Source of the DNA: Gammaproteobacteria bacterium
Lineage (GTDB): Bacteria > Pseudomonadota > Gammaproteobacteria > Thiohalomonadales > Thiohalomonadaceae
Direction of reading: 5' to 3'
Assembly (NCBI GenBank): GCA_026196575.1
Contig: JAPHSX010000001.1
Coordinates: forward strand, 1-64,000
DNA: 64,000 nt
Shown here piece after piece: positions 60,455 to 62,159 of this stretch. Under the pieces are notes generated by a model. That model was not told the DNA's origin. It saw only the letters and a program-made list of their open reading frames with translations, and made no database searches. The position numbers and the translations under genes are program-made. Positions within the stretch are counted from its first letter, which is position 1; each line of letters begins with the position of its first letter.

Positions 60455-60799
60455 TCAGAGACGGCTCAGTTTGATGACATGAGTGCATGCATCTACATGC
60501 GGGGGCAGTTCTCGCATTGAGCACGCAACATTAGAATTGACACCGTTTGTTCGGATCAGAGGGAAGCGGATGCTACAAGGCGAGAACTGACCCCGCCTTT
60601 TTTTGCTTAACGCCTTTTTTTGCTTAATGTTATAGCCAAGAAATAAGCCTGCTAAAAATAATGGAAGTACCAATATTAAATAAATATAAATCGTTTTTTC
60701 AGGCTCTGGCGCAAACCCAATGCCCATCGCCATTAATCCAATTGGAATGGAAGATAGGAAGAAAATTGTTAGGCTCAGAAAAATTGCAGTGAAATTCAT
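60455..60799 (-). CDS. small membrane protein in an integron-like cassette, 3' end altered
   Basis: Starts MNFTAIFLSLTIFFLSSIP with two or three hydrophobic segments up to LFLAGLFLGYNI, then KQKKALSKKRR. Beyond that the frame runs through a repeat (60571-60597) and ends in unrelated residues, so the native stop seems lost. The ATG is 6 bp after an attC site. AT-rich, unlike the chromosome around it. No family recognised. Confidence 0.5.
   Translation of the reverse strand: MNFTAIFLSLTIFFLSSIPIGLMAMGIGFAPEPEKTIYIYLILVLPLFLAGLFLGYNIKQKKALSKKRRGQFSPCSIRFPLIRTNGVNSNVACSMRELPPHVDACTHVIKLSRL
60571..60597 (-). repeat. GGGGTCAG-type repeat, inverted partner of 61581-61607
   Basis: Reverse complement reads GGCGGGGTCAGTTCTCGCC then TTGTAGCA, which matches 61581-61607 (ACGGGGTCAGGTCTCGTATT then GTAGCAG). 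The two copies face each other across the cassette region. GCGAGAACTG here also pairs with CAGTTCTCGC at about 60507-60516. Confidence 0.5.
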
Positions 60800-60804
60800 T
60801 TGTA

Positions 60805-60878
60805 GCTCTAACGACAAAGCTGTGCGGCGCAAACGAAGCGCAGCGTAGATTGCGTCCGAACGAGCGCCTTGTTAGGGC
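60805..60878 (-). other. attC recombination site (integron cassette type)
   Basis: 74-bp imperfect palindrome between the two ORFs. On the minus strand it begins GCCCTAAC, whose TAA is the stop codon of the HEPN gene, and ends GTTAGAGC. Inner arms AAGGCGCTCGTTCGGACGC and GCGCCGCACAGCTTTGTC pair with extrahelical bases. The core sites approximate RYYYAAC and GTTRRRY (one mismatch each). No integrase gene is nearby. Confidence 0.7.
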
Positions 60879-61366
60879 GAGATCCCAAACTCTGTGCAAA
60901 TACGATTGTATTCAGCTTCATATACACTGTCAGTAACCCCATGTTTTACGCGAACCAATTTAACTGCTTCGCTTAATTGCCCATCAGTATTTTCAAAAAG
61001 TTTCTGGTCGTTTTGTAGCTCTTTCAACATTTCATCCCTGCCACTTCGAGTCACAAAATTTTCTGCCTTTTCTCTGAAATAGTTATGAGCTAAACAATTT
61101 CTTCTTTTTAAAGCTTGAGCCAAATGTGATTCCAAGTTATGAGGCAATGCTGCTTCAGAGCGCAGATGCTTTATTAATGCTCCAAGCGTTTTCTCAAATC
61201 GACCTGCCATAAACTCATCAATATCTTGACGAGTGTATTCGTCCTTATCTGGCAATCGTAGAATCACGAGCGCATTAGCTATTCCGTGCTCAAGAATTTG
61301 AGCTAGGTACATTGCTAGACCATAGTGCGCATATACATCTCGTGTTTGTTCTTCGCCGTAGTCCAT
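60872..61366 (-). CDS. HEPN-like protein with RX4HXY motif, cassette-encoded
   Basis: 164 helical residues. R89-N-C-L-A-H94-N-Y96 (RRNCLAHNYF) fits the RX4HXY ribonuclease motif of HEPN toxins such as HepT. N-terminal helix YAHYGLAMYLAQILEHGI. No MNT antitoxin is adjacent. The gene fills the space between two attC-type sites, with its stop inside the downstream one, and has AT-rich base use. It could be a stand-alone RNase, a defence factor, or a non-toxic HEPN scaffold. Confidence 0.65.
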   Translation of the reverse strand: MDYGEEQTRDVYAHYGLAMYLAQILEHGIANALVILRLPDKDEYTRQDIDEFMAGRFEKTLGALIKHLRSEAALPHNLESHLAQALKRRNCLAHNYFREKAENFVTRSGRDEMLKELQNDQKLFENTDGQLSEAVKLVRVKHGVTDSVYEAEYNRICTEFGISP

Positions 61367-61374
61367 TTCTATTT

Positions 61375-61400
61375 GCGCCCTAACGCCTAGCTAAGCCGAC
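61375..61400 (-). other. partial attC site upstream of the HEPN gene
   Basis: Minus strand GCGGTCGGCTTAGCTAGGCGTTAGGGCGC: a right-hand attC half (GTTAGGGC core) just before the HEPN ATG. The matching left half is missing; repeat R copy 5 begins 40 bp further. Confidence 0.6.
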
Positions 61401-61440
61401 CGCCGTAGTGGTGCATTCTTTTGTGCTACACAGCACAGGG

Positions 61441-61482
61441 GAAAAGGGGTCAGGTCTTGACATTGCGGTTTTGCTGAATCAA
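61441..61482 (+). repeat. dispersed repeat R, copy 5
   Basis: A-run, GGGGTCAGGTCTTGAC, ATTGCGGTTTTGCTGAATCA. Its right end matches copy 1, 59 kb away, rather than copies 2-4. Confidence 0.7.
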
Positions 61483-62159
61483 GGTTAGCCGCCTTATTTT
61501 CAGTCGCGCCATAAACAGGTGATTGCCATCGTGCCATCGCATCGCGTGGAACCACGCCTGCGAGACAGCTGTTCGCGGCAACGGGGTCAGGTCTCGTATT
61601 GTAGCAGCCCATCCGAAGCTCCTCTTAGACTGCGTATTATGATGCAAGACCTGAGCTCGCTTCTCCTTGGGGAAAGCATCACGCACCCTGTGTTTGGCGG
61701 GTTGGTGTTGGCTATGTTGCGGGGGTGGTTTCACATTCCCTTGAAGCGACACGATGACCCTCCTTGCTTTTTGTATTATGCTTTTTCAGATACTGCCTTA
61801 TCTATCCGGAATTTCCAAGCGTATTTTGGGGCCCTGTGATCAGCGTAAGTCGCCATTTCAAGTCACCCACGATTCATTTGTTTCTGTTGGCATCGCGTCG
61901 CGGTGGAGGCCGCACAACGATAATCCTCACCATATTACGGGGTGCGGGATGTGCCGCCCTGGCCCCTCACTCATTATTGGAGAACACACAGGTGGTTGAC
62001 AGCGCATCGCGGCGGAGCCGCTCCTACCAACCAATGGCCACCCAACCGGCCCGGTTTTGCATCACGGTTTTCATTACCCTGCGCTACCCCCTTGGATGAA
62101 GGGCAGGCGCCGCCGCGATGGTGTAGAATCAGCGCCCCATCTGATTTGAGGAGCTTCCA
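61483..62159. other. gene-free stretch of repeats and degenerate sequence
   Basis: No credible gene; the open frames lack family motifs. 61581-61607 holds a GGGGTCAGGTCTC repeat (inverted partner at 60571-60597), 61711-61735 a TTGCGGGGGTGGTTT string also present (inverted) near 2388, and 62006-62027 a REP unit. Looks like a graveyard of inserted elements before hslV. Confidence 0.5.
62006..62027 (-). repeat. REP-like unit
   Basis: ATCGCGGCGGAGCCGCTCCTAC, the reverse complement of the unit clustered at 59079-59290. Confidence 0.6.

Follow-up and report, generated by a model that had tools for sequence, protein, structure and literature searches.

We propose that the window analysed here (one stretch of 64,000 nucleotides from the start of a contig of a Thiohalomonadaceae genome) contains a stranded cassette from the host's own integron, cut by REP/MITE elements, whose gene would encode an antitoxin-free HEPN-type RNase activated by infection or stress; to this joint reading we assign a probability of roughly 0.55. 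The island consists of an intact HEPN cassette between the remaining half of the preceding attC site and the front of the next cassette. This single-attC relic, which RAYT-type REP/MITE elements cut on either side, is composed of the following features (window coordinates).

60499-60597, no strand: RAYT-derived MITE/REP of 99 bp with 21-nt inverted ends (inverted repeat I2).
60598-60802, minus strand: 5' part of a second cassette, the start of a small membrane-type protein (MNFTAIFLSLTIFF...).
60806-60877, minus strand: complete 72-bp attC of the HEPN cassette, a scanner match with a bottom-strand fold.
60872-61366, minus strand: gene of the HEPN-type protein (164 aa), the sole intact cassette gene of the island.
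61079-61102, minus strand: predicted RNase motif RNCLAHNY, codons 89-96 (R89, H94, Y96).
61378-61437, minus strand: truncated attC of which the 3' half remains (L' and R', end GTTAGGGC), recognized by attC similarity.
61437-61475, no strand: REP of the GGGGTCAGGTCTTGACATT type adjoining the truncated attC, recognized from its genome copies.
61577-61609, no strand: second REP (GGGGTCAGGTCTCGTATTGTAGCA), forming inverted repeat I1 with 60568-60595 (opposite orientation).

Both cassette genes are AT-rich: GC content is 40.7% in the HEPN gene and 33.2% in the second cassette, whereas the 64-kb window has 61.4%. The second open reading frame starts with an ATG at 60802 on the minus strand and stays open across the MITE to 60455, the 3' end of this cassette and its attC being missing from the point where the MITE cuts it. 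A plasmid search returned no homologue of its protein, and family libraries gave nothing above threshold, the only matches being sub-threshold ones to membrane families. A perfect 17-bp tandem duplication (CGCCTTTTTTTGCTTAA) is present at 60594-60627, where the second cassette meets the MITE. An Rfam scan of the 64-kb window gave no match at gathering thresholds.

The complete attC was located with a structure-based scanner that requires R boxes and L boxes in pairs, the latter with the usual extrahelical base, and in addition another extrahelical base and a paired stem further on, a layout which we take to be that of aadA-type and VCR attC sites. The scanner found a single match in the window, with a score of 18.5, within the range of the attC sites of the host and related genomes (16.5-21.5), whereas 3 Mb of first-order Markov sequence gave no match of at least 17.5 on either strand. 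The first-pass annotation had placed an attC between the two AT-rich reading frames and had made its score one of the points on which the claim would fall; with a score well above simulated chance the claim stands, and the exact span, 60806-60877 on the minus strand, is one base shorter on each side than the 60805-60878 given there. The site is canonical, with paired R and L boxes and both extrahelical bases present (L'' side; GCTcGTTCGGa layout). Its R' box is GTTAGAG (60806-60812), and the TAA stop codon of the HEPN gene (60874-60872) falls within the R'' box CCCTAAC (60871-60877), so that, as had been noticed from the sequence at the outset, the stop codon is part of the site. Folding gave -15.0 kcal/mol for the bottom strand (window plus strand) versus -12.2 kcal/mol for the top strand, and the bottom-strand fold is the textbook one, with an R stem, an unpaired spacer, an L stem carrying the extrahelical bases and a terminal stem. 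An attC of the cassette array on another host contig (C4) is 78% identical to the site over 69 nt. The opposite orientation of the attC, with the HEPN gene antisense in its cassette, was considered and is ruled out by the position of the extrahelical bases; as these lie at GCTcGTTCGGaCGCAA, the attC has minus-strand orientation and HEPN is a normal sense cassette gene.

On the other side of the HEPN gene, a 31-nt stretch (61381-61411) matches, at 90% identity, the 3' half of the attC that comes first in the host array (C4:16886-16916), and similarity to an attC of a same-genus genome (G369, locus L120) amounts to 79% over 48 nt and reaches 61437. These similarities bear out the earlier suggestion that a half-attC precedes the gene; its 5' half is gone where the REP starts. 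The ATG of the HEPN gene lies 12 nt past the half-attC, and the same layout from R' to ATG is seen in the homologues from a plasmid of Candidatus Tenderia electrophaga and from a Nitrospirota MAG (L077), the latter with the same start boundary as the window cassette. DNA similarity to the Tenderia plasmid homologue (72%), whose protein is 72% identical to ours, extends over window positions 60869-61384, and its limits are the two R boxes. Because the similarity is bounded by both R boxes, we regard the unit as a real, transferable cassette. R boxes at the gene edge were also found in the Tenderia plasmid, Vibrio integron and L077 homologues; on sequence grounds there is strong evidence that the HEPN unit is exchanged as an integron cassette, from R box to R box.

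The origin of this cassette is best considered together with the integrases of the host, whose genome we examined through sampled contigs. The first-pass annotation had stated that there is no integrase, which is true of the window and reflects the fact that one window only was in view; the genome itself carries two full-length IntI genes, scoring 457.8 bits (contig C17) and 440.6 bits (C29) against an NCBIfam cut-off of 265. Contigs C29 and C39 are joined by an exact 33-bp overlap, yielding a 480-aa IntI accompanied by an attI-like sequence and cassettes. This 480-aa IntI has a long N-terminal extension, and its platform is split over C39:1-1600 and C29:1-1160 (L044, L041). Another platform, at C4:15709-21700 (L048/L134), contains a truncated copy of the same IntI, an attI-like sequence and approximately seven attC sites. 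Neighbours of the C17 IntI (332 aa, C17:7711-8646, L040) are SbcCD-like and phage-like genes, and the 20 kb examined contained no convincing attC. As attC sites of the C4 array share 78-90% identity with the attC parts of the window, the fragment most likely derives from the lineage's own cassette stock, and a piece of the host's integron cassettes is what the sequence comparison points to as the most likely identity of the island; its position in a donor array was not found. With an integrase encoded elsewhere in the genome, the complete attC could be used in trans, and since no more than half an attC is left upstream of the HEPN cassette, this cassette is expected to be excised poorly or not at all by the normal route.

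How the fragment became isolated is suggested by its edges. At the left edge, one end of the palindromic MITE matches that of a RAYT-containing element (C46:8861-9767) with 97% identity over 31 nt. The REP family at the right edge has about a dozen copies in the genome, some of them inside the C4 cassette array, where a half-attC adjoins such a REP as well. The motif of the second REP (61577-61609) ends a Y1 transposase (RAYT) gene on C39. We infer that REP/MITE elements carried, recombined or eroded the fragment; elements of the RAYT type would have separated it from the array and truncated it at either end. No clean empty site was found in a search of relatives, where the MOSC-hslV neighbourhood is not preserved.

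With two IntI genes in the genome, an integrase acting in trans could also have inserted free cassettes at a secondary, off-target site, as the first-pass annotation had suggested as one of two possibilities. After such an insertion the last attC should be complete and the junction a bare GTT, and neither is seen: in place of a bare GTT target the 5' junction holds 31-57 nt of genuine attC, namely a true 3' half, the 3' junction is without the attC that each inserted cassette should bring, and REP/MITE elements occupy both outer edges. We therefore disfavour off-target insertion and consider it the least probable of the alternatives weighed here. The other possibility then raised, a CALIN-like remnant, is correct insofar as the island is the remnant of an array; the current IntegronFinder default for reporting a CALIN is at least two attC sites (PMC9024848), and with one complete attC and one half the island falls under this threshold of two.

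Two further observations concern the RAYT elements of this genome. RAYT genes are located at C39:2203-2676, C31:121884-122809 and C46:8861-9770, flanked by or ending in GGGGTCAGGTCT. RAYT-derived MITE/REP copies lie in cassette arrays and interrupt attC sites.

We then considered the protein encoded by the stranded cassette. It contains an RX4HXY motif, RNCLAHNY, and in an alignment of 17 family members R89 is present in 16 whereas N90, L92, A93 and H94 are invariant (17/17). Residue 96 is Y or F across the family, with F in about half of the members, leaving R and H as the only conserved catalytic pair. A full catalytic R/H/Y motif, as the first reading of the locus had it, is thus intact in the window protein and conserved in its R and H, while the Y is not a fixed position; the non-conservation of the motif among homologues that was to count against the claim was not found, given the near-invariance of R89 and H94. 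The arrangement R89-N90-x3-H94 has the features by which the HEPN superfamily motif is recognized (RX4-6H, a polar residue after R, conservation within the family). An AlphaFold2 model (pLDDT 85) is an all-helical bundle in which R89-H94 are positioned at the end of the third main helix (76-94), and in HEPN domains the motif is placed at the end of helix 3 of a four-helix bundle (PMC3710099). In a VIA-align comparison, HEPN/HepT structures accounted for 10 of the 50 matches listed, with a best Z of 8.0, Z values of 6-8 being the background level for helical bundles. Foldseek gave no significant match to the PDB or to viral models, and no model of Pfam, NCBIfam or PADLOC passed its threshold for this protein. 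Sub-threshold matches were obtained to several HEPN families, of which the HepT-like match (13.6 bits versus a cut-off of 23.5) spans the motif. Membership of the HEPN superfamily is therefore likely and rests mainly on the motif.

A helical protein that needs R and H for its structure or for binding a ligand would agree with the failure of every library model to reach threshold and with the loss of the R in one homologue (L086), and so would a decayed pseudogene. The invariance of N90, L92, A93 and H94, together with R89 in 16 of 17 members, argues against such a non-enzymatic or decayed protein, as does a dN far below dS: compared with the Tenderia homologue, dN is 0.166 and dS is saturated, values by which the HEPN gene is judged to be under purifying selection. 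We consider this alternative very improbable. The preferred reading is that of a compact four-helix HEPN-type protein, probably dimeric, predicted to act as a metal-independent endoribonuclease by means of R89 and H94. A promoter scan detected none above chance reading into the HEPN gene, which suggests that this copy may be nearly silent.

The absence of an antitoxin partner, noted at the outset from the window, extends to the family: no antitoxin gene is adjacent to the HEPN reading frame, and no neighbour or partner gene is conserved over 26 loci, which makes a linked protein antitoxin unlikely. The protein could still be a toxin that belongs with an antitoxin which is unlinked, is an RNA or has been lost, in which case this copy would be toxic or silenced. 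HepT toxins of MntA-HepT pairs are among the closest fold matches, and the sub-threshold HepT-like matches point in the same direction. On the other hand, there is no conserved partner gene in the 26 loci, homologues travel as single-gene cassettes, and the position that we take to correspond to the tyrosine modified by MntA in HepT is F in about half of the family. An orphaned toxin is for these reasons unlikely in our view. An RNase that needs no antitoxin would probably be kept off by autoinhibition or by very low expression, until phage infection or a comparable stress led to RNA cleavage and a stop of growth.

The distribution of the family and its gene neighbours bear on the nature of this trigger. 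Homologues occur in Vibrio integrons and plasmids, on the Tenderia plasmid and in Shewanella, Rheinheimera, enterobacteria and Pseudomonas, as well as in a Sphingomonadales MAG, other MAGs, prophages and Salmonella phage PSP3 (gp38). The family is rare, with a match in four of 369 genomes of the class, the window's own included. Scans of the genome contig and viral contig collections with a single sequence found no homologue, whereas a three-sequence profile search found 18 loci in genome contigs and three in viral contigs; E. coli genomes gave no close DNA match to an enterobacterial homologue. The Nitrospirota MAG carries two tandem HEPN genes of the family (L077:5001-6043), the second of which is 33% identical to the window protein.

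Counted as raw occurrences, the defence neighbours of family members are QatCD, IetS, AbiJ, Fic-like genes and RloB. For some homologues the context is an integron with neighbouring cassettes annotated as abortive-infection and toxin-antitoxin genes, and one homologue lies at the end locus of the P2-like phage PSP3. In three prophages (L092, L096, L097), DRT RT_UG17 and its SLATT partner are directly beside a family member. A dormancy or stress RNase of the kind described for integron cassettes in 2013, with no special anti-phage role, has a precedent in the proposal by Anantharaman et al. for HEPN proteins of integron cassettes (PMC3710099) and would suit the several homologues that adjoin housekeeping or ordinary metabolic genes; the neighbours that recur are defence systems and phage accessory loci, and we regard a role restricted to dormancy or stress as rather unlikely, though it is the strongest of the alternatives. 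An RNase activated by infection or stress is most likely what the HEPN protein would be, and its gene neighbours make it a fair candidate for phage defence. According to PMC12409362, which reports on Darracq 2025, about 10% of the V. cholerae cassettes tested gave phage defence.

It is tempting to speculate that these proteins form an uncatalogued family of single-gene, antitoxin-free HEPN RNases that act in phage defence and are carried on cassettes, phages and defence islands in Pseudomonadota and beyond, a proposal that we put forward tentatively, as a possibility somewhat short of even odds. Storage of phage-defence genes in integrons has been demonstrated recently, with the active protein known for a minority of cassettes; through the family, a cassette gene whose catalytic motif is clear is connected with phage accessory loci and with Qat, DRT, IetS and AbiJ neighbours. 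The locus is in addition an example of REP/MITE elements leaving a cassette stranded outside its array.

Among known systems, the nearest precedent is Vpc_cass2 (PDB 3JRT), likewise a lone HEPN-type helical protein in a gammaproteobacterial integron cassette and the example given in 2013 with the naming of HEPN proteins carried by integron cassettes (PMC3710099, PMC3548836). The first-pass annotation had put the protein forward as a candidate for a new stand-alone RNase or defence cassette; the idea of a HEPN integron cassette had been described already (PMC3710099). The family itself has no model in Pfam, NCBIfam or PADLOC and no detectable sequence match to 3JRT. The Vpc_cass2 paper stresses K63, E66 and H109 (PMC3548836), whereas the window family conserves R89-N90-x-L92-A93-H94. 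A search with the family profile returned no 3JRT chain at E values up to 10, which is compatible with remote homology, and 3JRT is absent among the sequence and VIA-align matches listed, which is no evidence for a different fold.

HepT (PF01934) of the MntA-HepT system shares with the window protein the RX4HXY motif and a similar length, and has the four-helix bundle that is predicted for the window protein (VIA-align Z of approximately 7). In MntA-HepT the MNT nucleotidyltransferase is adjacent, whereas no member of the window family has MntA beside it, and the Y of HepT is replaced by F in many members. PSP3 gp38 (phrog_12893, annotated as function unknown) is a true distant homologue (PHROG E value 1.6e-11) and, like the window protein, is a single gene with an RN-x-LAH motif; it differs in being phage-borne and outside any cassette, at 139 aa and 27% identity. 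AbiD/AbiF, AbiJ and Tha of S. aureus prophages provide HEPN phage defence without a linked antitoxin (PMC3710099, PMC11087260), and these stand-alone abortive-infection proteins show no detectable family-level sequence match to the window family. At the level of the locus, CALINs and single attC sites are, as here, attC cassettes away from an integrase (PMC9024848); unlike a CALIN, the island has one complete attC, an integrase elsewhere in the genome and ends set by REP/MITE elements.
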